IMG/VR virus record: IMGVR_UViG_3300020129_000546 | Coordinates: 1-46,260 of that record | DNA: 46,260 nucleotides | From: a virus | Reading direction: 5' to 3' (one strand) | In this document: piece after piece, positions 8,372 through 46,260 of the stretch | Numbering within the stretch: position 1 is the stretch's first letter | Layout: each line of letters begins with the position of its first letter | Notes under the pieces: generated by a model | Told to the model about the DNA's origin: nothing | Seen by the model: the letters and a program-made list of their open reading frames with translations, nothing else | The model's database searches: none | Made by a program: the position numbers and the translations under genes

Positions 8372-11300
8372 GTGGCCGTCAACAACCCGCTGAGCACGAT
8401 CCTGCCGGCGGCTCAGCAGCCGAGCGTCGGCTCCTCCCCGGGCGCCGGCCAGGCGCCGGGCTTCGGTCCCGCGCAGCAGCAGTTCACGCTCCAGAACCTC
8501 GGCCAGCAGCCGCAGGGCGAGCAGCAGCCGGCGCTCGCGCCGTTGCCCCAGCTCGTGCCCTACGTCGGCATGCGGCCGTACTACGCTGCGCTCGGCCAGC
8601 AGCCGCAGGCGGTCATGCCCCAGGTCTCGGACCCCACCCTGCAGGCCATCCAGCAGAAGCTCAGCGCCTTGCAGGCGACCACGCCGCTCCTCCAGGGCGC
8701 GCAGCCGCCGCACCCCAGCTCGGTACTGGCCAAGCAGCAGGCGCCGATGAGCCCGCTCCAGATCGTGGGGGCGGCCGGGCAGCAGCTCTGGCAGCAGGAG
8801 GTGGTCAACCCTGTCCAGGACTACATCAAGACCTGGCAGACCAACCCCGGCCAGGCGCTGGCCGAGACCGCGCTCGGGATCGGCACGATCGCCGCCGTGG
8901 TCGGCCTGGAGGCGGTCACCGGCGGCGCCGCGACCCCGGTCATCTTCGCTGCCTTCGGCGCCATGGCCGCGCCTGCGCTGGTCAAGAGCTGGGCGCAGGA
9001 GGTGACCGACCCCACGGACGGCCACCTGGTACAGGCGCTGGTATCGACCGGCAGCGCCGTGCTCTCGGTCGGCTCGCCGGTGCGCGCGTTCAAGGGCATC
9101 CAGAGCGCCCGTGCGCTGCTGAACAACGCCATCGTGGCGCGCAAGATGGTCGTGGACGCGGATGCCGCGGCGGGCCTGATCCTCGGCGGCCGGTCGGCGA
9201 CGTGGGCCATCCGCACCGGGGTCCCGCTGGAGAAGCAGATCGAGGTGCTGAGCCCCGATCCCGAGGAGGCGCTGCGCCAGTTTCAGGCCCGGTCGGTCAA
9301 CGTCGAGGAGGGCACGGCCGCCGCGTACATGGCGGCGTCGCGCAGCCAGCAGGCCCTGACCAAGCGTCTGCAGACGGCTCGCGACGCCGGCGACCTGGAC
9401 GCGGTCAAGAACCTCCTCCAGGAGATCCGCGGACACGCCAAGGAGACCCTGGCACCGGCTACCCTGGCAGCGGCGTACGACCACCTGTTCATCCCCTCGA
9501 CGCCGTACACGCACGTGCCGCTGTCCCCCCTGGAGGGGGTGTCGCCCGATCTGCACGACGCCCTGAATGAGCACGAGGGGGCGATCCGCGGGCTGCTGCG
9601 CGAGCTGCACAGCGGCAACGCGCTCCAGGGCCTGCACGAGACGGCCACCCGCATCGAGTCGGTGATGGAGCAGGGCGCACTCGACCGCGCCGCCGGCACC
9701 GCCTGGGACATGGGCAATCGGGTCCTGTCGCGTATCGAGGAGATGGCTCGGGCGGCCGGGCTCAGCGGCCTCAATGACGAGCGGATCGAGCCCATCCTGC
9801 AGGCGCTGGAGGAGCCCGAGAAGTGGCAGGCCCTGCTCGATGCCGAGCCCGAGCAGGCGGCGTTCGCGCAGCGGCTCCGCAACATCTCGAACATGCTCAC
9901 CGCCGGCGAGCTGAAGCACGGCACCGTGGCGCTGCCGCTGCTCGGCCGGGTGGCTCACTACGTGCGCGGCACGACCGGCGACCAGCAGGCCGAGCCGATC
10001 GAGATGTTCAGCTCCTGGTGGAAGAACCCGACCGGTTCGCGCTCGCGGTACTGGCGTGTCGCCGTGGACGACGAGAGCGGAGCGGTGACATTCCTGCCTC
10101 GTACGCGGGCCGGCATCATCGAGAAGTTCAAGAAGCAGACCGAGTTCTACGAGGCGACGCACGAGCACCGCCAGATGTACATCGCGAATCGGGCCGCGAT
10201 CAACGCCGCTCGCCGCCGCTTCGGCCAGCTCGAAGGCAAGCGCGGACTCGGCCACGACGATCCCAAGGTTGTCGCCGCGGCGCGGGCCAAGATCGATCAG
10301 ATGATGCTCGAAGCCCACAGCTCGATGGGTAGGCTCGCGCCCGAGCTGATCGGCATGGAGTACAAGCAGCTTCAGAAGCTGCGGCGCGCGGCCCCGGCCA
10401 CCCAGGAGCTGGTGACCGGCGGCGAGGCTGTACGGCAGATGCTGGCCCGCCACATGCACCGGATGCACATGGCGGTGATCGGCGACGGCCTGCGCTCGCA
10501 TGCCAACCTGAACATGCAGAAGATGCGGGACATCTTCGGCGAGACGCCGATGAAGACCTGGGGGGCGGCGATGGAGCTGCCTTCGTTCAAGAGCAAGCAT
10601 GAACTCCCGGACATCCTGGAGGACACGGTCTTCCTGGGCCAGGGCAAGAACGCCGGCTCGGTAGAGGATAACGCTCGGCGCCTGGGCTACTTCCTGGCGC
10701 ACCCCGCGGTCGGTCGCCCCGGCGACCTGCACCATCGGCCGGCGCTGTACGCACGCGGTGACCTGGCCAACAAGATCAAGCAGGCGGAAGCCGATACATC
10801 GGCGGCGGGCCTGCAGAACGGCATCCTGGATGCCCTGTACAACATCAGCGGAACGAGCAAGCGGTTCGTCATGTACAACCCGCTGTTCCACCGCATGAAC
10901 ACAGCGGGCCGGGCCTTCAGCTTTTTGCTGAGTGATCCGGCCATGGCCCAGTCGGCGTTCAAGGCCGTGGGCGAACTCAAGAAGGACTCGGAGGCGTACT
11001 ACGCACTGCTGGAGGAAGCCGGTCAGGCCGGCATGGTCCATGCCAACCAGTGGAACGTCTCGCACCATCTGCAGCTCCTGCAGCGTGAGGAGGATGGCCA
11101 GCACCACTTCCTGGGCGCCATCCGGAACTTCGGGAGGGCCATCAACGACTGGCACTCCGAGCACCTGGAGCGCGGGCTCTGGAACAGCGTGGACAACACG
11201 CAGCTCGCGGCCTACATGTACATGAAGGCGAGGATGGCCGGTAAGGGCATCCATGGACCAGACGCCCGACGTGCTGCGGCGCAGTACGCGAACATGCTGG

Positions 11301-13027
11301 GCGGCATGGTCAACCCGTTGTATATGAACCGGATGTGGCGCCATCTCAAGGGCCTGGTCTGGTTCGCTCCCTCGTACTGGGCCACCTTCCTGCACTCGCT
11401 CCAGTCGATGGTGCCGGGTGCGGCGCGGCTGTCCCAGTTCATGGCCGAGGCCGGCGGCGGGCGCTTCGTGCGGATGTCTGCCGTCCCCCTGAAGGCGCTC
11501 GACTACCGTGCCCGCGTCGAGCTGGTACGTGCACAGCGGAGCTGGATGCTCACTTACCTGTCCACGGCCGCGGTGTCGATGGACCTGCTCAACGTGATGT
11601 TCTCTGGCCACCACCTGTGGGACAACCAGCAGGGACACCAGTTCGATATCGACGTCACCAACGTGACCGGCACGTCGCAGGTCGATGCGCAGCACCCGGA
11701 GCCCAAGCCGGCGTACATCACCACCATGCCCTTCTTCCGGCAGGCGGTGGATGTCGCCAACGCGATCGGGCTCGGTCACGACTACGGGTTCGCCCACAAC
11801 TTCAGCGATGCCACCTGGCAGAAGCAGGACGCCTTCCACAAGGCGTCGATGGCGATGGGGGCGCTGGTTGACGGTGTCCGTCGCGAGGCGGCCGGCAAGG
11901 TCGGTGCCATCCCGCAGGCGGGGTACACCGCGGCCACCGGCCAGTCGTTCTACGGGAACGCCGGCCAGGGCGTGAACCAGCCGATCGACCGTTGGGAGGC
12001 GCTGGCTTCCCTGGTGCCGAGCGGGTACCAGGTGCAGCGAATCATCAAGCAGTACCAGCAGGAGCAGGCTCAGGCTACAGGTCAGCAGCAGCCAGCGAGC
12101 GCGTTCTGGAAGGACGCCACGATCGGCATGCTGTCCAGCCTGGTCGGGGTCCCGAGCATCTATCACATGGGCGTCGAGACGCCGCCGATTGACGACAGCA
12201 AGTACCAGAACTGGCAGTCCCAGCGGACTGCGATCCACGACCAGATGGTGGCGTACAGCAACCAGGTCTTCTCGGGGGGCATTTCCCCTGCTGAATACTC
12301 CCGGCACAGGCACGACATGGAGCAGCGCATGGCGCAGCTCGACGCAGATACATGGGGCGACAGTTCGCCAGGTGCGGGCCTGTCGGCCGCGTACTCACAG
12401 CTCTCCAAGCAGTTCGGTCTGGACAACCAGGCTCTGTCGGACCAGCAGTGGTTCGAGCTGTACGACGCCTTCCTGCCAGCCTGGAACCAGATGCTCCAGG
12501 CGGCCGACCCCTCGTCTCGCGCTGCTTGGTGGGAGCACCGTACGCAGCAGTGGACCGACGCCGACTACCTGGAGTGGGAGGCGCAGCAGCTCAAGGAGGC
12601 CCTGGCCGGCTCGATCGATGGCCAGGGCGGGGCGTACATCCGCGCCGTCCAGAACCAGCTCTACCAGCTCAAGCCGTACATGAGCGCGGCCGACTTCTCG
12701 GCCATGGAGGACTCGGACCCGGCATACTCCGCGTACCGGGCCATGCTCCAGAACATCGGGCAGACCAGTCCCCTCGGCGCCTTCGTCTCGGCGTTCAGCT
12801 CGCCGTTCTCGACCACGGCCATCCTGCCGCCCGGCATGACGTCCGAGCAGGCCCAGGAGGTGGCTGGATCGACGGGCGGCTACGCGGTGCGCGCCGAGGA
12901 GGCGTCGCAGCTCGCGCAGCAGGCCCGCCAGGTGGCGGCCGAGCCCGAGGTGGCGCAGGCCGGCGGTGACGCCGGCGCCAGCCCCGAGGTTCAGGCCGCG
13001 GTCCAGGCCGCGAGCGAGGCGCAGTAG
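8372..13027 (+). CDS. Large internal virion / DNA ejection protein (probable), 1551 aa
   Basis: This is the largest gene. GTG at 8372 follows the previous stop by one base. Visible parts are a Gln/Pro-rich N-terminus (1-150), a hydrophobic Gly/Ala-rich segment (about 167-207) that could contact a membrane, long helical regions, and an aromatic helical block (about 925-1075, containing WHSEHLERGLWN) resembling the alpha-helical domains of large polyvalent or ejected phage proteins. Its position between portal and a peptidoglycan hydrolase matches the T7-like set of ejected core proteins. No enzyme motif is seen. The ejection role is inference from position, size and composition. Confidence 0.6.
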   Translation: MAVNNPLSTILPAAQQPSVGSSPGAGQAPGFGPAQQQFTLQNLGQQPQGEQQPALAPLPQLVPYVGMRPYYAALGQQPQAVMPQVSDPTLQAIQQKLSALQATTPLLQGAQPPHPSSVLAKQQAPMSPLQIVGAAGQQLWQQEVVNPVQDYIKTWQTNPGQALAETALGIGTIAAVVGLEAVTGGAATPVIFAAFGAMAAPALVKSWAQEVTDPTDGHLVQALVSTGSAVLSVGSPVRAFKGIQSARALLNNAIVARKMVVDADAAAGLILGGRSATWAIRTGVPLEKQIEVLSPDPEEALRQFQARSVNVEEGTAAAYMAASRSQQALTKRLQTARDAGDLDAVKNLLQEIRGHAKETLAPATLAAAYDHLFIPSTPYTHVPLSPLEGVSPDLHDALNEHEGAIRGLLRELHSGNALQGLHETATRIESVMEQGALDRAAGTAWDMGNRVLSRIEEMARAAGLSGLNDERIEPILQALEEPEKWQALLDAEPEQAAFAQRLRNISNMLTAGELKHGTVALPLLGRVAHYVRGTTGDQQAEPIEMFSSWWKNPTGSRSRYWRVAVDDESGAVTFLPRTRAGIIEKFKKQTEFYEATHEHRQMYIANRAAINAARRRFGQLEGKRGLGHDDPKVVAAARAKIDQMMLEAHSSMGRLAPELIGMEYKQLQKLRRAAPATQELVTGGEAVRQMLARHMHRMHMAVIGDGLRSHANLNMQKMRDIFGETPMKTWGAAMELPSFKSKHELPDILEDTVFLGQGKNAGSVEDNARRLGYFLAHPAVGRPGDLHHRPALYARGDLANKIKQAEADTSAAGLQNGILDALYNISGTSKRFVMYNPLFHRMNTAGRAFSFLLSDPAMAQSAFKAVGELKKDSEAYYALLEEAGQAGMVHANQWNVSHHLQLLQREEDGQHHFLGAIRNFGRAINDWHSEHLERGLWNSVDNTQLAAYMYMKARMAGKGIHGPDARRAAAQYANMLGGMVNPLYMNRMWRHLKGLVWFAPSYWATFLHSLQSMVPGAARLSQFMAEAGGGRFVRMSAVPLKALDYRARVELVRAQRSWMLTYLSTAAVSMDLLNVMFSGHHLWDNQQGHQFDIDVTNVTGTSQVDAQHPEPKPAYITTMPFFRQAVDVANAIGLGHDYGFAHNFSDATWQKQDAFHKASMAMGALVDGVRREAAGKVGAIPQAGYTAATGQSFYGNAGQGVNQPIDRWEALASLVPSGYQVQRIIKQYQQEQAQATGQQQPASAFWKDATIGMLSSLVGVPSIYHMGVETPPIDDSKYQNWQSQRTAIHDQMVAYSNQVFSGGISPAEYSRHRHDMEQRMAQLDADTWGDSSPGAGLSAAYSQLSKQFGLDNQALSDQQWFELYDAFLPAWNQMLQAADPSSRAAWWEHRTQQWTDADYLEWEAQQLKEALAGSIDGQGGAYIRAVQNQLYQLKPYMSAADFSAMEDSDPAYSAYRAMLQNIGQTSPLGAFVSAFSSPFSTTAILPPGMTSEQAQEVAGSTGGYAVRAEEASQLAQQARQVAAEPEVAQAGGDAGASPEVQAAVQAASEAQ

Positions 13028-18137: not shown

Positions 18138-19391
18138 GTGGCCTTCACTCACGTCGGCCTGGCCGAGCTGGACTACACGCCGGGCGCGATCCGCACCGAC
18201 ATGTCGGACGGCCAGTACGCGTCCCTCATCATGCTCACCAACTTCCTGTCGTCGCTCGGGTTCGGCAACTTCGGCGGCGGCGGTACGGGCGTGGGCGCCA
18301 GCAATCAGCAGCTCATCCACTACTGGACCGAGACGCGGCTCAACCCGCGCACGGTGACGCTCCTCGACGCGGGCGGCATCAACAACGCGGTCCAGGTGTT
18401 CACGGTCTCGCTCGCGGACGGCGGCCTGCTCGACGTCGGCTACATCCTGAAGGACCGCGCGCAGACGCTCCTGGTCGCGGAGCAGATCTTCGTGAACGGC
18501 TTCATCGTCGGCGCGAGCAACGTCAGCGTCCAGATCACGCGCGGCTTCAACGGCACCACGCTCGCCAGCCACGCGCAGAACGCCATCCTGGAGATCGTCG
18601 GCGCTCCGGTGCCCGAGGGCTCCGACGTCGGCCGCGACCAGAGCCGCAGCCCCGGGGTGAAGGGCAACCTGATCCAGAGCTGGCGGCGCGACGTCGTGAT
18701 CGACGGCTCGATGGTCTCGCTGGCGCGGCACGGGATGATCCCGGGCCAGCCCAACATGCCGGCCTTCCAGCTCCACGAGCGCTGGTGGGAGATGACGATC
18801 GACATGGAGCGGTCGCTCATCAACGGCATCGGCACGCCGGCGGCGACGCAGACCGACTACCAGGAGATGTGGGGCGCGCTTGCGTGGCTCGGGTACAGCA
18901 ACCCGGTCCCCAACAGCACCGCGCAGTTGTTCAACGCGAACGGCGCCTTCATCAGCGACATCCTGTGCTCGCAGGTCGGTATCAACATCTACCTGCAGGG
19001 CGGCGACATCCCCGACGTCGTGGTGGCGCACCCGTACGTGATCGACAGGATCAGCCGCGTCTTCCGCGACCAGATCCGGATCACCGAGTCGGAGCTGATC
19101 CGCGGCGTGAACGTGGACGCCATCCGGCTCAGCATCGGTCGCAAGCCGCTGCAGCTCGTGATGAGCGGCTACATGCCCGATCCGACCCTGGTCGAGTCGA
19201 TCGCCGCGTTCATCGACCTCGACCGGATCAACATCGTCCCGTTCCTCGACCGGTTCTGCTTCCTGATCTCCAGCCCCAGCATGAAGGACGCCGACATGGT
19301 GTCGGTCTTCAGCCAGTACACCATCGAGTTCAGGAACACCGGCACCGATACTGGCTTCACCAGCCAGGTCATGCGGAACTTCGGGATCTAG
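18138..19391 (+). CDS. Major capsid protein (SU10 / DUF5309 type)
   Basis: GTG at 18138 follows GGGGAGG at a good distance. The 417-aa protein shows the pattern of SU10-like major capsid proteins: GNLIQSWRRDVVIDGSM, then an acidic helix HERWWEMTIDMERSLINGIG, a later VAHPYVIDRISRVFRDQ region and a C-terminal beta part with LVMSGYMPDPT and DLDRINIVPF. The HK97 fold is known for this family; the assignment is by motif recall. Its place after a scaffold-like gene agrees. It would form the icosahedral shell. Confidence 0.75.
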   Translation: MAFTHVGLAELDYTPGAIRTDMSDGQYASLIMLTNFLSSLGFGNFGGGGTGVGASNQQLIHYWTETRLNPRTVTLLDAGGINNAVQVFTVSLADGGLLDVGYILKDRAQTLLVAEQIFVNGFIVGASNVSVQITRGFNGTTLASHAQNAILEIVGAPVPEGSDVGRDQSRSPGVKGNLIQSWRRDVVIDGSMVSLARHGMIPGQPNMPAFQLHERWWEMTIDMERSLINGIGTPAATQTDYQEMWGALAWLGYSNPVPNSTAQLFNANGAFISDILCSQVGINIYLQGGDIPDVVVAHPYVIDRISRVFRDQIRITESELIRGVNVDAIRLSIGRKPLQLVMSGYMPDPTLVESIAAFIDLDRINIVPFLDRFCFLISSPSMKDADMVSVFSQYTIEFRNTGTDTGFTSQVMRNFGI

Positions 19392-21672: not shown

Positions 21673-23001
21673 GTGACGCTCGCGCTCGGCAACGGCCAGC
21701 CGGACAGCTTCTTCGTCCAGGAGGTCCGGCGCATCTTCCGGGACCAGGGGCGGTTCGTTCAGGAGGCGCCCGGCGCGGACGGCCAGCGCGGCGGGTACGG
21801 CTCGGCGGCCAGCTCGCCGATCAAGCTCCAGCAGGCGCCGGTGCTGCGCACGGTGATCGCGCTCACGGCGCCCGGCGCCGTCAACCAGCCCCTGCCGGGC
21901 ACCCTGACGGCGCCGGCCTACGCCCCCCTGTTCGACCCCCTGCCGCCGACCCCGGGCATTCTGCCCACGCCGGTGCTGACCGCCGGCGCCGCCGGCATCT
22001 ACCCGGCCGGGACCTACCAGGTGGTCTTGACCTACCAGGTGGGCACGACCGAGGTGGGCATGTCCTTCCCCTCCAACGCGCTCGCGCTCGGCGCCGGGCT
22101 CTCGATCCGGGTCGGCGCGCTGAGCGGGTTGCCGGCCGCTGTCACCGCGGTGAACGTGTACCTCATCACCAGCCCCGGCGCCCCGGTGTTCTGCGGGTTC
22201 CTGGGCCAGATGGCAGTCACTGCCAACGCCACCCCGGCGACCACGTTCAACGTCTCCGGCAACGGCGTGCTGCCGGTGCTCATCAGCACCGACACCGGCG
22301 AGCTGTGGTTCCCGCTGCCGCCCGTCTCGGGCTCCATCCAGATCCAGTACCAGACCGCGCGCTACAGCGACCAGCAGGTACTGGAGGCGCTGTACGAGGG
22401 CCTGGGCATGCTCTGGCCGGAGATTTGGTCGTACCAGCCCTTCGACCTGGTCAGCGTGCTGCCGAGCCCGGTGCAGTACGAGTACGTGCTGCCGGCCGTG
22501 CCCTACGCGGACCCCAAGACGGTCATCACCCAGGTCGAGGTCCGGCCGCCGCAGGCGTGGATTCGCTTCCGGCGCGTCTCGGGCTGGCGCTTCGCCCAGG
22601 ACCCGGTGTCGCCGACGCTCATCTTCGAGAAGACCCCGCCCACCGGCGGCCAGGTCCGCATCACCGCGGTGCAGCCCTTCCAGAACCTGGCCGACGTGCC
22701 CGGCATGGGCGGCACCGGCATCCTGCTGCCGCCGGCCAACCTGCCCGTGTACTACGCGGTGGGCCGGCTCCTGGCGGACGCCGAGGTGATGCGCTCGCGC
22801 GCCGACGACATGCCCGCGCTGACCGGGGAGAGCGCGGGCTCCGAGAAGGGCGGCAACCTCCAGACGGCCACGTTCTGGTTCTCGACCATGTTCGCGCAGG
22901 AGCTGGCCAAGCTCTCGATCGGCAAGCCGGCCCGGCGCATGGTCGCGCACCGGATCGTGGAGCGGCTGGGGCTCAGCTCGATCTGGCAGGAGGCAGCATG
23001 A
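21673..23001 (+). CDS. Probable head-tail connector or tail protein with beta domain, 442 aa
   Basis: The GTG start fits the leaderless promoter. Residues 1-45 and about 220-270 are helical (VQEVRRIFRDQG; QQVLEALYEGLGMLWPEIW), and between them lies a Thr/Val/Gly-rich beta domain like an Ig or fibronectin fold (AGTYQVVLTYQVGTTEVG). The C-terminus is helical. Split connector proteins with such insertions occur in short-tailed phages. No exact family is recognised. Confidence 0.58.
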   Translation: MTLALGNGQPDSFFVQEVRRIFRDQGRFVQEAPGADGQRGGYGSAASSPIKLQQAPVLRTVIALTAPGAVNQPLPGTLTAPAYAPLFDPLPPTPGILPTPVLTAGAAGIYPAGTYQVVLTYQVGTTEVGMSFPSNALALGAGLSIRVGALSGLPAAVTAVNVYLITSPGAPVFCGFLGQMAVTANATPATTFNVSGNGVLPVLISTDTGELWFPLPPVSGSIQIQYQTARYSDQQVLEALYEGLGMLWPEIWSYQPFDLVSVLPSPVQYEYVLPAVPYADPKTVITQVEVRPPQAWIRFRRVSGWRFAQDPVSPTLIFEKTPPTGGQVRITAVQPFQNLADVPGMGGTGILLPPANLPVYYAVGRLLADAEVMRSRADDMPALTGESAGSEKGGNLQTATFWFSTMFAQELAKLSIGKPARRMVAHRIVERLGLSSIWQEAA

Positions 23002-23402
23002 AGCACCGCACCCCGACCGGCCGCGTCACCCACGTCGCGGTGCCGCCCGAGCCCACCCAGGGCGTCCAGCCGAGCGCGGACTACACCCGGGTCAGCCGGC
23101 AGCTCATCGCTCGCCAGGACCAGCACGGCCGCCCCCGCGAGACGGTCAAGGTCGAGGGCATGGGGCCGAGCCGGCTCCAGCTCGACCGCACCCGGGTCAC
23201 GGCCGCGGAGATCGCGGCCCAGGAGCTGGCGGCCACCCAGCGCCAGCAGGCGGACCAGGCGCGGGGCCTGGCGGATTCGCTCAGCTTCGAGGCCCGGGCG
23301 CGGGCCGCCGGCGCCATGGGCCGCGTCACCCCGGCCATGCGGTTCCGTCTCGACCAGCGGGAGGCCGAGCGCTCCTATGCCTACCCGCGGACCTCGCGCT
23401 GA
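22998..23402 (+). CDS. Hypothetical protein, 134 aa
   Basis: GGAGG stands four bases before ATG 22998, which overlaps the previous stop by four bases. The product is charged, Arg/Gln-rich and helical (AAEIAAQELAATQRQQADQA), with a basic C-terminus. It is placed between connector-like and AAA+ genes. Function unknown. Confidence 0.65.
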   Translation: MKHRTPTGRVTHVAVPPEPTQGVQPSADYTRVSRQLIARQDQHGRPRETVKVEGMGPSRLQLDRTRVTAAEIAAQELAATQRQQADQARGLADSLSFEARARAAGAMGRVTPAMRFRLDQREAERSYAYPRTSR

Positions 23403-24495
23403 CGGCCGCGACGCGGCTGTATCAGCCAGTACACGGCGCGGGAAGCCCCATGGCCGTATGCCGCAGTCTCCGGCCGCTCAGGAGCCCGAGCTGCCCGAGC
23501 TGCGCAGGCCCGAGGTCTTCTTCGACGCGCTCGACTCGCTGGTTGGCCAGGACGACCTCCGGCTGAAGCTGGCGAGCACCTTCTTCCAGTACCTCGCCTA
23601 CCTCCACGATCCTGACGTCGGCCGCCCCAACCTGCTCGTGTACGGCCGCTCGGGCTCGGGCAAGACGTACGCCATCCAGCAGTGCATCAAGGCCGCCGGC
23701 CTGCCGGTGACCATGCCCAGCGCGGCCAGCCTGGCGCCGCCCGGCTTCCGGGGCCGCGTCTTCGTGGACGTGCTGATCGACCACTGGCGGAAGTGGAAGA
23801 CGGACTACGGCGTGATCTTCCTGGACGAGATCGACAAGTGGTGCGCCGGCTCCGCGCAGCAGAACTCGCGCAAGCCCGCCGACCAGTCCCGCGTCGGCAG
23901 TGAGCTGGAGATGGGCGGCATCGCGCTCCAGCAGGAGCTGCTGCGCACGATCGAGGGCGAGCTGGTCACCTTCACCGACGACGCCAAGGACGTCGAGGAG
24001 CTGGAGGACGTGGTCTTCGACACCGGCCACGTGTTCTGGATCTTCGGCGGCGCCTTCGTCCACCTGGACCGGTACGTGCGCGCCCGCGCCAACCCGCACT
24101 TCAGCGAGGAGGAGGCGTGGGAGCACGCCGTACCGGCCGACTTCAAGCGCTACGGGATGACCGCCGAGCTGGCCGACCGGATCTCGACCTGGGCCTGGAC
24201 CAAGCCGCTCAAGGTCCCGCAGATGATGCAGATCCTGCGCGACCAGGACGCGCCCCGCTGGCAGAAGCGGTTCGCCATGCTCGACGTCGAGCTGCGCCTG
24301 GAGGACGGCGCCCTGGGCGCCTGCGCGCAGCACGCCTGGGAGATGCGCGAGGGGCCGCGGGTGGCTCGCGCTATGCTCAACCGCGGCATGGACGACATCC
24401 TCGCTCTCGCCTCGCGCCGCGCCGCCACCGAGCCCGGGTGGGATCGGGTCGTGACCGTTCACGCTGGCACCGTGAAGTCGGGAACGATCGACTGA
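23377..24495 (+). CDS. ClpX-like AAA+ unfoldase without ClpP-docking loop
   Basis: The 372-aa protein has Walker A GRSGSGKT (90-97), Walker B IFLDEID (147-153), ALQQELLRTIEGE like the ClpX QQALLKLIEG block, GGAF (224-227), and sensor 2 GPR (326-328; GAR in ClpX). The pore loop GYVG is GFRG (123-126). The zinc-binding N-domain and the IGF loop for ClpP are absent: only about 25 residues separate GGAFVHLDR from FKRYG. It may remodel virion proteins during assembly without proteolysis. ATG 23377 overlaps the previous gene by 26 bp and has only a distant ribosome site; ATG 23458 is an alternative. Confidence 0.85.
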   Translation: MPTRGPRADGRDAAVSASTRRGKPHGRMPQSPAAQEPELPELRRPEVFFDALDSLVGQDDLRLKLASTFFQYLAYLHDPDVGRPNLLVYGRSGSGKTYAIQQCIKAAGLPVTMPSAASLAPPGFRGRVFVDVLIDHWRKWKTDYGVIFLDEIDKWCAGSAQQNSRKPADQSRVGSELEMGGIALQQELLRTIEGELVTFTDDAKDVEELEDVVFDTGHVFWIFGGAFVHLDRYVRARANPHFSEEEAWEHAVPADFKRYGMTAELADRISTWAWTKPLKVPQMMQILRDQDAPRWQKRFAMLDVELRLEDGALGACAQHAWEMREGPRVARAMLNRGMDDILALASRRAATEPGWDRVVTVHAGTVKSGTID

Positions 24496-26723
24496 TGGGC
24501 TCGAACCCGCAGGCGCAGGAGGTCGGCCCGATCTATGACCTGCTGCTGCAGACCCGCGACGGCTCAGCGCTGGCGTGTCGAGATGCCCAGGGCCAGATCC
24601 GCCAGCTCACCGGCGTCGCGTACATGGGCACGATCGACCGCAACCAGGGGCAGAAGGAAGAGACCGAGCTGCAGCACAAGGACGAGCTGGTGCAGCTCGG
24701 CAGCTCGAACATCATCGACCGCGAGCTGACCAACTGGCCCCAGGTCACGCAGGGCGACTGGACCGGGGGCATGCTCCAGCGCGTGTTCAGCGGCCCCAAC
24801 TCCGACCCGTCCCGATACTGGGAGGGCGACGGCATCCTGTGGCCGATCAGCGACTACCTGCCCCAGCGGCCGGCGCAGTACGCTCCGTTCCAGGCCGAGG
24901 GCGGCGCCGTCATGAGGGTGATCGGACAGACCGGAACGCCGGCAGGGTCGATCAATTCCATCGGCATGTCGTACGCGTTCCTGTACACCACCACGGTCGG
25001 CACCATCGCCACCAACCTGGTCATCGTCAACAACGACACGCGGTACACGATCACCAACCCGGCCGGTATCGCGACTGGCAACGGTACACCGGCCGCGCCC
25101 GCCGCGGTCGCGGAGTTCATGATCGCTGCTGGCGTGCTCTGGTACATCGTCCAGGGCGGCGCTGGCAGCACCGAGATTCGGTTCGTAACGGTGGGCACTC
25201 CGACGACGACGTTGTTCGACACCATCGCCAACTCGGCGCCGCTGGGACAGAGCGGCACGTGCGCGGTCGGCTACGTCGGCAACAAGGTCTACCTCGCGGT
25301 GCCGTACCTGAGCAACACCACCCCCACCACGCGCATCCGCATCTACGAAATCCAGAACGGCGTCGCGACCTCGTTCACCGAGCTGGTCCTGGCCGACACA
25401 ACCACGGTCCTCGGCAGCAGCGATCAGCTCAGCATCGCGAGCACGGTGTTCGTCGGCGACACGCTGTACTACTCGCTGCAGACCGGCGACGGGAGCGCCA
25501 TCATCGTGGCCTTCAACCTGCCCGGCGCGACCTTCTCGACCGTGGCCACGCTGCCCGGCGAGGGCCAGCTCTACATGACCGCGGCGGCCGGCGTGATCTT
25601 CGTCATCTCCGGCGGCGGCAACATGTACCTGCTCCAGGGCGGATCGCTGCAGCACATCGGCCCGCTGCCGCCGCAGATCGGGCCGGTGACCGTCACCCCG
25701 GGCACGCAGGGGATCGCGTTCGTGGCCAGCAACTCGCTCTCCCGGGCGGTGTCGTTCGGACCATACGTGGTCTTCGCGGCGTCGTACTACCCGCCGGGGG
25801 CCAGCACATCGATCGTGGTCGTGTACGCGTACGACGTGCTCCGCGGACGCTTGTTCCGACTCGGTGTGGCCAGCAACCTGGCCCGCGCTCAGGCGATGAG
25901 CGGGGCGCGCATCGGGCTGCTGACGGGCCACTCGCGCACGATCGCGACCGGCCTCACGATTGTGCCCCAGTGGTCGGTCGTGGTGCCCATCCTGGGCTTC
26001 CTGGGCCAGGCGCTCGACGTCTCCAACGCGCAGATACTCGACGTCGGTGTGCGCCGCCAGAACTTCGCGGTGACGCAGCTCGGGTTCCAGGCGACGTCGT
26101 CCATCATCGACTTCACGTCGTCGCAGCCCAAGCTCTACCGCGACGTGCTCGCGACCTTCCTGCCCCTGCTGGCGGACGCGAGCTGCGGCGTCCAGCTCGA
26201 TGTGTGGCTCGACCGCGACCCGGCCGCCCTGAGCCCGGTGCCCGACTTCACGACGTCGGTCTTCGGTGACACCCACGCCGGCAGCACCCAGCTCGTGCTG
26301 CCGGTCAACACCATCGCTACCAAGCTGGTGTACCGCGTCACGACCTTCGGCGGCGCCGCGGTGGGCTCGACCCTGTTCGACGCGCCCAAGATCGTCTCGG
26401 TCATCGTTCGGGTCGCGACCGGGTGGGTGCAGACGCTGAAGCTCGACCTGGCGCCGCAGCTCCAGAGCAACGGCAAGAACGTGCAGGACGTGTGGACGTA
26501 CCAGGGCATCGACAACGTGGCCGCGTACAACTTCCTGCGCCAGCTCTGGCGACAGAAGGGCGGTCAGTGCAACATCGCGCTGCCCAACGGTGACGCCGGG
26601 CGATGGCAGATGGAGGACATGCAGTTCGACTCGCCCAAGCCCTTCGGCACGGTCTTCCGCGCCGACCAGGCGAGCGGGTTCAAGTGGATGGCGACAGTCA
26701 AGATCCGCGAGGACATCGACTGA
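24495..26723 (+). CDS. Tail protein, probable beta-propeller nozzle or hub, 742 aa
   Basis: ATG overlaps the previous TGA. After a helical N-terminal 90 residues come many repeating beta units with Gly/Thr/Val patterns (VGNKVYLAVPYLSNTT, VGDTLYYSLQTGDGS, AAAGVIFVISGGGNMYLL, VVFAASYYPPGASTS), like propeller blades. The last 120 residues are a beta/alpha domain. Tail nozzle and hub proteins of short-tailed phages have this build. The assignment rests on sequence pattern and position. Confidence 0.6.
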   Translation: MGSNPQAQEVGPIYDLLLQTRDGSALACRDAQGQIRQLTGVAYMGTIDRNQGQKEETELQHKDELVQLGSSNIIDRELTNWPQVTQGDWTGGMLQRVFSGPNSDPSRYWEGDGILWPISDYLPQRPAQYAPFQAEGGAVMRVIGQTGTPAGSINSIGMSYAFLYTTTVGTIATNLVIVNNDTRYTITNPAGIATGNGTPAAPAAVAEFMIAAGVLWYIVQGGAGSTEIRFVTVGTPTTTLFDTIANSAPLGQSGTCAVGYVGNKVYLAVPYLSNTTPTTRIRIYEIQNGVATSFTELVLADTTTVLGSSDQLSIASTVFVGDTLYYSLQTGDGSAIIVAFNLPGATFSTVATLPGEGQLYMTAAAGVIFVISGGGNMYLLQGGSLQHIGPLPPQIGPVTVTPGTQGIAFVASNSLSRAVSFGPYVVFAASYYPPGASTSIVVVYAYDVLRGRLFRLGVASNLARAQAMSGARIGLLTGHSRTIATGLTIVPQWSVVVPILGFLGQALDVSNAQILDVGVRRQNFAVTQLGFQATSSIIDFTSSQPKLYRDVLATFLPLLADASCGVQLDVWLDRDPAALSPVPDFTTSVFGDTHAGSTQLVLPVNTIATKLVYRVTTFGGAAVGSTLFDAPKIVSVIVRVATGWVQTLKLDLAPQLQSNGKNVQDVWTYQGIDNVAAYNFLRQLWRQKGGQCNIALPNGDAGRWQMEDMQFDSPKPFGTVFRADQASGFKWMATVKIREDID

Positions 26724-28640: not shown

Positions 28641-29483
28641 GTGCCGGTGCGGAACATCTCCGCGCCGGCGGCGAGACGGGGCCGCCGCCTAGTCCCGGTC
28701 GCCTCGCGCTCGCACGTCACCGGTCCCGCGCCCGGGCCGCGCGCCTACTTCTCCCAGGTGATGGGTCTTGGCCCGGTCCTCTACCTGCGCATGAACGATC
28801 GCTTCAGCAGCTTCGCGCCCATTGGCGACTCCAGCTCCAGCAACGCCACCGGTGCGGTCAACGGGACAGTCACCAAGGAGCAGGTCGGCCCCCTGGCTGG
28901 CGATGCCACGACCAGCGGCCTGCTGTTCGACGGGGCCACCGGCTTCCTGGAGCTGGGAGCGCCGCCGCCGGCGCCGTTGCTGGGCGTGTTCCAGAACCAC
29001 GACTTCACCATCGAGGCATGGATCAAGCCCACCGCCTCGGCCAACTTCTTCTTCTCGTGCGGGCTGTTCAACAATCCCACGCAGACCGACCAGTTCCTGC
29101 ACTTCGGGTTCGGCGGCGGCAACCTGCTCAAGCTGGGGTTCTTCGGCGACGACCTGAACGGCGTGCTGCCAGTCTCGACCGGCGCCTATCACCACGTCGT
29201 CGCGACCTGGAGCGCGACCACCCGACTGATGGCGACGTACGTGGACGGCATGCTCGACTCCTCGCGCACGTCGGGCGGCGCCCTGGTCGTTCCCGGCAAC
29301 TCCGACGCCCAGGTGGCACGCGTCGCCTTCGCCACTGGCAACGGCCCGTTCTGGTACAACGGCATCATCAGCGAGTTGGCCGTCTATCCGATCACGCTGT
29401 CGCCGTCTCAGGTGAACTACCACTTCCTGCTGGGTGCCAATCCCGTTCCCAATCCAGTGCCCAAGATCACGTTGGAGGTTTGA
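28641..29483 (+). CDS. LamG/concanavalin-like receptor-binding tail protein, 280 aa
   Basis: GTG 28641 follows GGAGGAG. After a basic N-terminus, residues about 45-270 follow the LamG/concanavalin-A sandwich pattern: VLYLRMND, FTIEAWIKPT, AYHHVVATWSATTRLMATYVDGML and WYNGIISELAVYP. These jelly-roll lectin folds bind sugars and are frequent in phage fibres. It lies last in the tail gene run before lysis genes, so it is the best receptor-binding candidate. Confidence 0.72.
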   Translation: MPVRNISAPAARRGRRLVPVASRSHVTGPAPGPRAYFSQVMGLGPVLYLRMNDRFSSFAPIGDSSSSNATGAVNGTVTKEQVGPLAGDATTSGLLFDGATGFLELGAPPPAPLLGVFQNHDFTIEAWIKPTASANFFFSCGLFNNPTQTDQFLHFGFGGGNLLKLGFFGDDLNGVLPVSTGAYHHVVATWSATTRLMATYVDGMLDSSRTSGGALVVPGNSDAQVARVAFATGNGPFWYNGIISELAVYPITLSPSQVNYHFLLGANPVPNPVPKITLEV

Positions 29484-38659: not shown

Positions 38660-40083
38660 CGCACCTCCTCCAGGAACCTTCCGCCGGCCTCGCGGCCGAC
38701 GTCGCGGCCAGCAGTATAGAACCTTTCGATGTCGTCGCCCCGGTGCAGTCGGTGCCGCCAGATCGTGGCGTCCACGCTGCCCCGGATGAGCAGGTAGGCG
38801 TGGCGCAGGGTCTTGGCCTTCTGATTCGGCCCGCGGCCCCGAGCCTCGGCCTGGTAGTGGAGCGCGGCGTCGCGCCGGGGCTCCCCGTACAGGAACCAGC
38901 GGGCGGCCGAGAGATCGATGCCCAAGCCCGCCGACTGGAGGTTGCCGACCAGCAGCGGGAGCTTGCCGGCGGCGAAGTCGTGGCGAATCTGGTCGCGCTC
39001 GCGGACGCTGGTATCGCCGGTGATGACCGGGCAGTTCAGCACCCTGGCCAGGCCCTCGGTGTAGGCGCGGTGCCAGCCGAAGATGACCACCGGCTCGTGG
39101 TGCTCGACCAGCGGACGGTCGGGCCGCTCGACGTACGCCAGCTCACCAGCGCGGAGCTGGGCCAGGTACGCCTGCGTCAGCCTGATCTTGGCCGGCACCA
39201 GGGCCTGCTGCTCGGCGTCCAGGATGCTGTCGGGGAGGTCGTCGTCCGGCCATGCGGCGTCGCCCTCGCCCACCCACACCGGGAAGCGGTCGGGCAGCGC
39301 GATGGCGCGGACGTCCTCCTCGCGCAGGGCGAGCACGTTGGGCAGCTTCGCCCACAGCTCGCCCTCGTTCTTGATGCCGGTGTACGAGAGCCCGGTCTGC
39401 GCGAACGGGTTGGGCACGGCGTGGCAGTACCGGCAGGCGAAGCAGCGACCGCAGGCCGCGTTCTTGCGGTCCTTGGCCCAGGGCGCCTTGAAGCACGCCT
39501 TCTTCATGAAGAAGAACGGGTTGTTGGTGCTGCCGAAGGGTCGAAGCTGCCAGTAGATGTCCAGCGCGCTGTTCACGTACCAGGTTCCAGACAGCTCCCA
39601 CACTCGATCGGTGCCCTTGGCCAGCGCGTCGAAGGCGATGTACCGCTGGGTCTGCCCGGTGGCGCAGCGCAGGTAGACGTGGCTCTCGTCGGCCACCAGG
39701 TTGAACTGCTCGACCTCCAGGTGCTCCTGGAACCAGCCCAGCCAGTAGGGCAGGATCTCGGGGTTGATGAGGTACACCCGGGGCAGCCAGTCGGGCCAGC
39801 CGCTGGGGTCCGGCACCAGCCGTCGCGTGGACTCCTTGGTGCCGTAGCAGCGGACGAAGCGGAGGCCGAGGCTCATGGCCTCGGCCTCCTCCGGCCACAC
39901 ACCGAGCGCGGTGCTGGGGCCGACCACGACCAGGTCGCGGGCGCGGCCCGCGTTGACCTGGTTGTTGTGGGCGTGGAGCGTGGTCCGGGTCTTGCCCGTC
40001 CGCATCTCCCAGTTCAGGACGCCGCTGGTCCGCTCCAGCATCTCGGCGCCCCGGGGCTGCCACGGGAACAGCGTGTACGCCAC
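38656..40083 (-). CDS. SNF2/SF2-family DNA helicase with Cys cluster, 475 aa
   Basis: GTG 40083 overlaps the previous TAG. SF2 motifs are clear: motif I EMRTGKT (26-32), motif II ADESH (131-135), LSGTW (165-169, motif III) and the C-terminal half with ITGDTSVRERDQ, SAGLGIDLSAA and QAEARGRG. Between them is CGRCFACRYC (211-220) with Cys197 nearby, an unusual inserted metal cluster. It probably translocates on DNA in replication or recombination. It is coupled to the TOPRIM protein, suggesting a shared pathway. Confidence 0.85.
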   Translation of the reverse strand: MAYTLFPWQPRGAEMLERTSGVLNWEMRTGKTRTTLHAHNNQVNAGRARDLVVVGPSTALGVWPEEAEAMSLGLRFVRCYGTKESTRRLVPDPSGWPDWLPRVYLINPEILPYWLGWFQEHLEVEQFNLVADESHVYLRCATGQTQRYIAFDALAKGTDRVWELSGTWYVNSALDIYWQLRPFGSTNNPFFFMKKACFKAPWAKDRKNAACGRCFACRYCHAVPNPFAQTGLSYTGIKNEGELWAKLPNVLALREEDVRAIALPDRFPVWVGEGDAAWPDDDLPDSILDAEQQALVPAKIRLTQAYLAQLRAGELAYVERPDRPLVEHHEPVVIFGWHRAYTEGLARVLNCPVITGDTSVRERDQIRHDFAAGKLPLLVGNLQSAGLGIDLSAARWFLYGEPRRDAALHYQAEARGRGPNQKAKTLRHAYLLIRGSVDATIWRHRLHRGDDIERFYTAGRDVGREAGGRFLEEVR

Positions 40084-41021
40084 TACTCGTCGCCGTGGCT
40101 GTCGCGCAGGTACTCGGCGACGTCGAACCAGTTGTCGGCGGCCAGGGTCAGCAGTCGCTTCGCCTTGGCCTCCTCCTCCTGCGCCGCCTGCATCAGGTCG
40201 CTGTCCATCACGCCCTCGATGGATGACCGTACCAGATCGGCCAGCACCTGGGGCTCCAGCGCGTCCAGCTCCCAGCTCTCGTCGCCATACTGGGCCTGGT
40301 AGCCCTCGAACCGGCTGTCGGTGATCTTGGCCGGGTTGGGCGGCGGCCCGTACTGCTGGACCTGGTCCATGGTCAGCGCCACCCGCTCGACGCGGAAGCG
40401 GGAGATGTAGGCGCCGGCATGGTGGCCGATGAACGTGTACAGCCGGTCGGTGATGTCGCGCGTCATGTCCAGGCCGGACGGGTCGTGATCGCCGAAGTGG
40501 AAGATCACCACCCGCTTGCCGTCGTGGATCTTGCGCTGGAGCCGCATGCCGGCCATCCAGACCTCGCTGGCGCTGGCGTAGCCCCGACAGGAGAACAGGG
40601 GCACATCCAGCTCGTTGCAGACGCCCTCGAACACGCCCACGAGCGCGTCCTTCTCGATCCAGACCTCGGGGTGGATGGGCTGGTCCCGCCACCACGCCTC
40701 GTGGTACGAGTTGGCCGCCGAGTGGATGATGCTCTCGGGGTCCGTCCACGACGACAGCGAGCGCAGGAACCGGGTCCGGTCCTCGATCGCGGTCCAGGAG
40801 ACGCGCCCGGCCATCCGTGCGTCGTTGATGAGGTTGCCCAGGCTCTTGTACGACTGGAGCGTGTTGGGGATCAGCCCCCTGGCCACGTGCTGGTAGTAGA
40901 GCTGCCTCAGCGTCAGGCTGAAGCCCTGGGCCTGGTACTCGGCGATGATGTCGTTCGCCTGTACGATCTTGGCCTCGGACGCCCGTGAGAACTGCTTATG
41001 CTCATAGGCGATCAACGTCAA
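40083..41021 (-). CDS. Spo11/TopoVI-A-like TOPRIM protein, 312 aa
   Basis: TTG 41021 is placed by the GGAGGTTCTACG ribosome site at the end of RNA element copy C. The TOPRIM core has Glu123 (VWIEKDAL) and Asp178/Asp180 (FGDHDPSGLDM). Upstream LTLRQLYYQHV resembles the TSRxxYY catalytic Tyr motif of Spo11/TopoVI-A, with Tyr43 as candidate nucleophile. It may cut or relax DNA with the SNF2 helicase, whose gene it overlaps by one base. No TopoVI-B subunit is seen. The fold assignment is by motif only; JetD-like proteins are an alternative. Confidence 0.65.
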   Translation of the reverse strand: MTLIAYEHKQFSRASEAKIVQANDIIAEYQAQGFSLTLRQLYYQHVARGLIPNTLQSYKSLGNLINDARMAGRVSWTAIEDRTRFLRSLSSWTDPESIIHSAANSYHEAWWRDQPIHPEVWIEKDALVGVFEGVCNELDVPLFSCRGYASASEVWMAGMRLQRKIHDGKRVVIFHFGDHDPSGLDMTRDITDRLYTFIGHHAGAYISRFRVERVALTMDQVQQYGPPPNPAKITDSRFEGYQAQYGDESWELDALEPQVLADLVRSSIEGVMDSDLMQAAQEEEAKAKRLLTLAADNWFDVAEYLRDSHGDE

Positions 41022-44600: not shown

Positions 44601-44679
44601 GTAGAACCTCCTGTCATGTGGTGTACGGCCTTGGGACCGTACTGGGTAGTTACACCGGGTTGCCCCGGTGCCCTCCTAC
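44601..44679 (-). ncRNA. Conserved intergenic RNA element, copy F
   Basis: Minus strand: P1 GTAG/CTAC (as in copy C), loop GAGG/AA, P2 CACCGGG/CCCGGTG with GCAA tetraloop, P3 GTACGG/CCGTAC with loop TCCCAAG, then AGGAGGTTCTAC and GTG 44600. Confidence 0.8.
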
Positions 44680-45758
44680 TAGAACGTGAACGAGAGCAGC
44701 TTGCCCGCCGCCTGGTCCAGCTCCGTGCGCTTGTCCGCGTGCGGGGTGGTCTGCGAGAAGCGGGTGATGCCCTGGGCCATACCCCACACGGTGTTGGGGT
44801 TGCCGTCCTGGGACGGCACGACGGCCGCGTACGACGCCTCCAGCGCCTTGCGCGAGAGCCCCAGGGTCCGGATGCCGAACAGCTTGTCGAGCACGCCCTC
44901 CTTGGTGTCGGCGATGGTGGTCGTCTGCGCCTTCTCGATCATCGCCTGGTCGTCGCTGGCGCTGGCGTTCGCGTACTGCCGGAGCGCGTAGCTCCAGCGG
45001 TGCATCCGGCCGCGCACGTTGCCCACGTGCCGGAGCGACAGGTCCACGACGTTGCGGGCGCCCCAAATGATGTGGTTCCCGCACATCTCGCGGTACAGGA
45101 ACCGGGTGAGCTTGAGGCTCCCGGCGCCGACCTCGGAGTTCTCCACGATGACACCGCGGAACAGCGCGCCGTCCTGGCCGGGCTCGGCGATGGCCAGGTC
45201 CGACCGAGCCAGGAACACGAACATGTCGTGGTCGCTGGCGTAGAGCGGCAGGCTGTCGTCCAGGACTCGGATGGTGGGACGCGCCGGAGCCCAACCCTGG
45301 GCCTCCAGCTCCAGCAGCCGCTCGGCGACCTCGTGGTTCCAGATCCGCGCGTACTTGTCCGTGGTCAGCGACCGGCACACGGTGCCGCCGTTGACGTGGA
45401 ACAGCAGGCGCGCGGTGTTGCTGGCGCGTCCGCCCGCGTCCTGGCGCTGGGCCAGGCCGTGGTTGAGCAGGTCGGCTGCCAGTGTCGCGGGAAGCCCCCG
45501 CAGGTACTCCGCGGGAGCGCCCACGCGGTTGGCGAGCTGACCGAACGCCCAGTGCGTGAGCATGGCGGGGTTGCCGGCCCTGCCGACCACGGCCACGTCG
45601 TTGGCGACGGGCTGGGCCTTCAGGTCGGACCACGCCACCTCGCGCTCGGTCGAGGTCTTGGCGTACGCGTGGGTGGCCTCGTACAGCTCGCGGAGCGACT
45701 TGAACCGCTCGTCCGCCGGCCGGGTCGCCCACTGGTGATGCGCCTTGAACAGCTCCAT
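44679..45758 (-). CDS. DUF932-family phage/plasmid protein, 359 aa
   Basis: ATG 45758 follows GGAGGTTCTGTC. The protein matches the DUF932 pattern (QLANRVGAPAEYLRGLPATL; LLFHVNGGTVCRSLTTDKY; IVENSEVGAGSLKLTRFLYR; YREMCGNHIIWGA; YAAVVPSQDGNPNTVWGMAQ). The family is common on phages and plasmids; its exact function is unknown, with DNA or replication roles suggested. It sits between RNA elements G and F and is the largest gene of the left operon, so it may be a key early protein. Confidence 0.78.
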   Translation of the reverse strand: MELFKAHHQWATRPADERFKSLRELYEATHAYAKTSTEREVAWSDLKAQPVANDVAVVGRAGNPAMLTHWAFGQLANRVGAPAEYLRGLPATLAADLLNHGLAQRQDAGGRASNTARLLFHVNGGTVCRSLTTDKYARIWNHEVAERLLELEAQGWAPARPTIRVLDDSLPLYASDHDMFVFLARSDLAIAEPGQDGALFRGVIVENSEVGAGSLKLTRFLYREMCGNHIIWGARNVVDLSLRHVGNVRGRMHRWSYALRQYANASASDDQAMIEKAQTTTIADTKEGVLDKLFGIRTLGLSRKALEASYAAVVPSQDGNPNTVWGMAQGITRFSQTTPHADKRTELDQAAGKLLSFTF

Positions 45759-46059: not shown

Positions 46060-46140
46060 TGGAACCTCCACGCGGTACAGTGTGGCCGGGCTTGGAACCG
46101 GCCTGCCGCGTTACAGGGGCGTTAGCCCCTGTACTCCGCG
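46060..46140 (-). ncRNA. Conserved intergenic RNA element, copy H (crosses the repeat edge)
   Basis: Minus strand: P1 CGCG/CGCG, loop GAG/AA, P2 ACAGGGGC/GCCCCTGT with loop TAAC, P3 GGCCGG/CCGGCC with loop TTCCAAGC, then GGAGGTTCCA and ATG 46059. The stop of the gene crossing the circle join (TAA 46124-46122) lies in the P2 loop. Confidence 0.76.
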
Positions 46141-46260
46141 CTGTTGACTCTGTCACGTGTCGAATAGACCGTGATCTCGCCGTGCTCGCCGTAGCTGACG
46201 CTCAGGCCGTTGCCGTCCTTGCCGTCACCGTGGGCGCCGGGGAAGATGCGCAGTATCACC
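46122..46260 (-). CDS. 3' part of the gene that crosses the circle join
   Basis: This is the same gene as the one that starts at 300. Bases 46134-46260 duplicate its end at 1-127. From 46133 it adds Tyr, Arg and Gly and ends at TAA 46124-46122. In the circular genome the protein has 103 residues. Confidence 0.7.
   Translation of the reverse strand, partial: VILRIFPGAHGDGKDGNGLSVSYGEHGEITVYSTRDRVNSAEYRG
46134..46260. repeat. Right copy of the exact 127-bp terminal overlap
   Basis: These bases are identical to 1-127. When the two are merged, the gene at the join is intact and RNA element copy H is complete, which supports a circle of about 46,133 bp. Confidence 0.93.

Follow-up and report, generated by a model that had tools for sequence, protein, structure and literature searches.

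We find that the window, by which we mean the whole 46,260-base stretch of viral DNA analysed here, encodes, within a tail-gene operon, a 372-residue AAA+ protein related to the ClpX unfoldase. What is new is the combination of a ClpX-type motor without any recognised ClpP-docking feature, a 46-kb phage genome and a conserved location in the tail operon; ClpX proteins of phages and AAA+ chaperones for virus assembly are already known or have been proposed. The case for the protein being a ClpX-clade AAA+ is strong, and its function we infer. Our tentative reading is that it may be a ClpP-independent unfoldase made late in infection, which would act as a chaperone in assembling or remodelling a component of the head-tail junction, the tail or the ejection apparatus.

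The genome and its relatives

Given its direct terminal repeat of 127 bases (positions 1-127 and 46134-46260), the window most likely represents a complete phage genome that was assembled as a circle. Two relatives were used for comparison, IMGVR 3300047160_021962 (G001; 45,742 bases) and IMGVR 3300010398_000005 (G002; 46,275 bases), the latter with a 123-base repeat and, like the window, probably a complete circular genome. The major capsid protein is of the SU10 family (Table 1) and the portal gave a weak SU10 match, which together suggest a short-tailed phage. Neither TerL nor the portal had a match in named phages, and queries with TerL and the capsid protein recovered only the two sister genomes.

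Other genes of the window can be described briefly. Between the portal and capsid genes, at 8372-13027 (+), lies the gene for a 1551-aa protein that is 88% conserved, has no family match and is possibly an ejection or inner-virion protein. The product of 28641-29483 (+) contains a Concanavalin A-like lectin domain (Laminin_G_3, E = 2.7e-18) and is likely a host-recognition protein. Encoded on the minus strand are a phage topoisomerase family protein (40083-41021; phrog_6247, E = 4e-110), whose relatives in named phages include one annotated as DNA topoisomerase VI, and a DUF932 protein (44679-45758; E = 8.6e-6; phrog_1362, E = 3.9e-33).

Table 1. Features of the AAA+ gene, of its product and of the surrounding late genes.
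Feature	Position	Strand	Basis or remark
Major capsid protein, SU10 type	18138..19391	+	Pfam SU10_MCP, E = 3.1e-22; phrog_1328
442-aa late protein, possibly head-tail connector	21673..23001	+	Conserved 69% and 92%; phrog_8040 head closure, weak, E = 0.19
134-aa basic protein, pI 11.3	22998..23402	+	Overlaps AAA+ start by 26 bases; candidate partner or adaptor
ClpX-type AAA+ ATPase, 372 aa, without zinc-binding domain, IGF loop or RKH loop	23377..24495	+	Sequence and fold matches, orthologs
Basic, disordered N-terminal tail, residues 1-44, pI 11.5	23377..23508	+	Replaces zinc-binding domain
Walker A, residues 90-97, GRSGSGKT	23644..23667	+	G90, G93, G95, K96 and T97 invariant in 75 aligned proteins
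Pore loop 1, residues 123-126, GFRG (ClpX: GYVG)	23743..23754	+	Alignment
Walker B, residues 146-153, VIFLDEID	23812..23835	+	Invariant in 75 proteins
Acidic stretch DDAKDVEELEDV, residues 201-212, at ClpX RKH-loop position	23977..24012	+	Alignment
Short connection, about residues 237-246, at ClpX IGF-loop position	24085..24114	+	Alignment
Arginine finger R268	24178..24180	+	Invariant in 75 proteins
Sensor-2 arginine R328 (GPR; ClpX: GAR)	24358..24360	+	Invariant in 75 proteins
742-aa beta-rich protein, likely tail nozzle or receptor-binding protein	24495..26723	+	Start overlaps AAA+ stop

The AAA+ gene is conserved and under selection

Orthologs of the AAA+ protein are present at the same locus in G001 (85% identity) and G002 (87%), and the pairwise dN/dS values are 0.22 for the window against G001, 0.36 for the window against G002 and 0.25 for G001 against G002. 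The orthologs and these ratios rule out a chance open reading frame, and the frame is a real gene under purifying selection. Within the first 30 codons, 12 of the 13 nucleotide changes fall at third positions, a bias that supports the upstream start. The corresponding residues 1-30 are nearly invariant, with 0 and 2 amino acid changes in the two relatives, and are modelled with a pLDDT of about 45 (AlphaFold2).

The protein belongs to the ClpX clade

The best sequence match in the PDB was Neisseria ClpX (phmmer, E = 2.6e-21), at an identity to ClpX of only 22-28%. The NCBIfam clpX models (NF003745 / TIGR00382) gave 103 and 84 bits, below the equivalog cut-offs of 359 and 370.75. By tests of family membership the protein should be called ClpX-like or ClpX-derived, not ClpX. 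A single-chain AlphaFold2 model, made from an input alignment of 75 sequences, had a pLDDT of 87 and a pTM of 0.84, with a disordered N-terminal tail. When this model was searched against the PDB, all 50 matches listed were ClpX (best E = 2.5e-21), with TM-scores, by query length, of 0.57-0.67, values that may reflect how the two AAA+ subdomains are oriented and the absence of several ClpX parts. In the viral library the best match was one 401-residue protein (1.4e-21), followed by far weaker AAA+ proteins. Among PHROG profiles the best match was PHROG 4339, for which we found no associated named phages, and phrog_5534, a family of reduced phage ClpX-like AAA+ proteins, matched residues 83-228 (E = 2.4e-11). 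Similarity to HslU was marginal (E = 2.2e-4, 20 bits), and the MoxR, HslU, Lon and DnaA-like clades are ruled out as the identity of the protein by the profile and fold searches. The preliminary description of this DNA had likened the AAA+ motifs to those of ClpX. The alignment agrees, placing Walker A and B, QQELLRTIEGE (residues 185-195), GGAF (residues 224-227), the arginine finger and sensor 2 on their ClpX counterparts, and the predicted fold is that of ClpX and of no other AAA+ clade.

Features for ClpP docking are missing and substrate loops are rebuilt

In ClpX, most contacts with ClpP come from the IGF loops (PMC7112951). The site of this loop is reduced to 8-9 residues in the window protein, as against about 20 in ClpX, and no [LIVM]GF motif occurs anywhere in the protein, so that no intact IGF loop is found elsewhere. 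No CxxC or C4 zinc-binding domain was found in the protein either. Tyr153 and Val154 of pore loop 1 in ClpX grip the substrate, and the RKH loops serve in substrate recognition (PMC7112951). The middle columns of pore loop 1 hold Y in 70 of 72 and V in 71 of 72 other viral ClpX-like proteins, and the window protein has GFRG at this place. The aromatic-Arg-Gly sequence is also found in the D1 pore loops of Hsp100 proteins (KYRG). Since GFRG thus has precedent and retains the gripping aromatic residue, its presence is no sign of an inactive motor. Missing zinc domain, missing IGF loop and altered pore loop had all been claimed before, and the alignment bears them out; to these we add the loss of the RKH loop, the place of which is taken by DDAKDVEELED, and an insertion, relative to ClpX, of 11 residues near pore loop 2, just before the pore-2 region.

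An IGF-like loop was recognised in 71 of the 72 other viral ClpX-like proteins, a zinc domain in 65, one or the other in all 72 and, by a loose pattern, an RKH loop in 37, in a set that leans towards canonical ClpX because it was gathered by ClpX motifs. No clpP was detected in the window, G001 or G002, and it was detected in 12 of 14 control genomes. The absence of ClpP-docking features, as previously proposed, is thus upheld, and no ClpP of the phage's own was found. It is very improbable that substrates still reach ClpP or HslV of the host by way of a docking surface that has escaped recognition: all the catalytic residues of an unfoldase are present, but the protein has lost the IGF loop, has no [LIVM]GF motif in its stead and bears a marginal resemblance to HslU. 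As a separate observation, a sequence titled Acinetobacter phage MD-2021a (CAKLQH020000005.1; L004) carries tig-clpP-clpX and leuA, and is therefore probably a bacterial chromosome contig and not a phage.

Origin of the protein

In the tree, the AAA+ proteins of the window, G001 and G002 form a single clade that falls outside canonical ClpX and whose branch exceeds 6 changes per site. This clade lies on the same side as the short proteins of HD01, phCDa and Frozen with a support of 96/90, a place where long branches meet and for which the tree program cautions that long branches may have been joined and that the composition is unusual. Judging from their length and kind, these short proteins are probably members of phrog_5534; their genes lie in replication or early regions. 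The tree position and the long branch argue against a recent capture of host clpX, which is ruled out by these together with the low identity; the idea of a captured host gene is thus not borne out in any recent sense. Searches of viral and bacterial genome collections with patterns derived from the AAA+ protein or from pair alignments, and with FLDEIDKW, gave only G001, G002 and chance matches, with patterns that are blind to distant relatives and of which the first even missed G002.

It had further been suggested that the protein blocks host ClpX, for which we found no positive evidence. An inhibitor that acted by poisoning the hexamers of the host, or by competing for adaptors, would share the ClpX fold and the arginine finger, as the window protein does, but the low identity and the rebuilt loops speak against it, the zinc domain for adaptor binding is missing, and a mere decoy would have no need of an ATPase site that is fully conserved and kept by purifying selection. 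We consider this reading highly unlikely.

A conserved place among the tail genes

The genes for the 442-aa, 134-aa, AAA+ and 742-aa proteins are chained by overlapping starts and stops, no terminator-like site was found on the plus strand between 17600 and 28027, and the SU10-type capsid gene lies 4 kb upstream of the AAA+ gene. The 134-aa protein is 84-85% identical in G001 and G002, its gene is always directly upstream of the AAA+ gene, to which it is linked in translation, and the two genes are conserved to an equal degree. The 742-aa protein shares 43-44% identity with its orthologs, with a conserved N-terminus and a diverged remainder; it had no family match, its fold model was poor, and neither it nor the 442-aa protein gave useful PDB profile matches. 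G001 has an inserted gene for a pectate-lyase-like protein of 529 aa (Pfam, E = 3.2e-7; L002 11122-12711), which starts on the stop codon of the AAA+ gene and separates the latter from the gene for the 742-aa tail protein. Pectate-lyase-like folds are typical of tailspikes. Together, this insertion and the pattern of conservation indicate that the AAA+ gene and the 134-aa gene form a stable unit, next to which the downstream tail gene varies. The place of the AAA+ gene in the tail-gene operon is conserved in all three genomes. It had been described as lying between connector-like and tail genes; the late and tail context stands, and the one match in favour of the term connector-like is the weak phrog_8040 match of the upstream 442-aa gene.

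Proposed function

We infer hexamer formation, unfoldase activity, expression timing, client and assembly role as follows. The protein most likely forms an ATP-driven hexamer and is most likely made late, together with the virion proteins. Selected proteins, which would be head-tail, tail or ejection components of the virion, may be recruited through the conserved basic N-terminal tail, the adjacent 134-aa protein or both, pulled through the pore of the hexamer and released undegraded. A protease-free motor acting on the virion had been proposed before. The ClpX clade, the ATPase residues, the missing ClpP docking and the late-operon position are consistent with it and with a putative part in assembly.

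The late-operon position suggests timing, not function, and host-directed genes can occupy late regions. The protein may be a late factor directed at the host: it would take apart or remodel host proteins, such as a defence complex or a division protein, but not degrade them, and the place of its gene in the operon would serve expression only. The rebuilding of the loops by which ClpX recognises substrates would fit new clients of this sort, but all three genomes keep the AAA+ gene next to tail genes and nothing specific points to a host client, and we regard this as fairly unlikely. Slightly less probable still is a motor for phage DNA-protein complexes, which would load or take off proteins that act in replication, recombination or packaging, in the way that ClpX works on the Mu transpososome. 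The basic N-terminal tail and the basic 134-aa neighbour would suit such a task, and the reduced ClpX-like relatives are found in replication or early regions; the AAA+ gene, however, belongs to a late plus-strand operon, and the genes for replication (helicase, topoisomerase-like, RusA-like) mostly lie beyond 32 kb and on the minus strand. The location of those relatives, HD01, phCDa and Frozen, also means that the loss of parts alone does not imply a role in the virion.

To our knowledge, well-studied tailed phages assemble, fold and load their tail and ejection proteins without an ATP-driven AAA+ unfoldase of their own, which speaks against an assembly role. In a bolder form of the assembly reading, the morphogenesis of short-tailed phages, or even their virion, would have a ClpP-free ClpX-type unfoldase as a dedicated component, threading an ejection or tail protein into place with ATP and with the 134-aa protein as adaptor; this we think rather unlikely. 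Our literature search on ClpX-like proteins associated with the virion and on phage-encoded ClpX returned no paper. The unfoldase proposed here has shed the ClpP and ssrA features known from ClpX, while selection maintains its ATPase within the tail operon; it would be a small and testable example of how a degradation motor becomes a remodelling motor, and would point to a possible energy-driven step in virion assembly.

Comparison with known systems

Phage SU10 (Kuravirus) has the same capsid family as the window, and tail genes after the capsid gene; in contrast to the window, a AAA protein was not among the terms matched in its structure paper (PMC9509320). In the archaeal virus ATV, the AAA+ protein p618 is a virion component to which a chaperone role in tail development has been assigned (PMC4124505), a precedent for our proposal. 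However, p618 is of the MoxR clade and has a VWA cofactor, p892, whereas the window protein has the ClpX fold and no VWA match was found in the genes neighbouring it. Bacterial ClpX shares with the window protein the large and small AAA+ domains, the Walker motifs, the arginine finger, sensor 2, the QQ..L..EG and GGAF motifs and the predicted fold; it differs in having the zinc-binding domain and the IGF and RKH loops, in its pore loop 1 and in lacking the 11-residue insertion, and the scores of the window protein fall far below the ClpX cut-offs. A role in virion assembly has also been suggested for phage-encoded ClpX of jumbo phages, such as that of Agrobacterium phage Atu_ph07 (AUZ94814.1; PMC7824862), but this protein retains the zinc domain and GYVG, and its gene lies beside topoisomerase genes in a 490-kb genome and not in a tail operon. 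The reduced ClpX-like AAA+ proteins of Schitoviridae and of Acinetobacter phage HD01, some of which are annotated as "Clp protease", resemble the window protein in having ClpX-like motifs without a zinc domain or IGF loop and are on the nearest side of the tree, but they are only 249-278 residues long, have GTSG or GLSG as pore loops and are encoded among replication or early genes.
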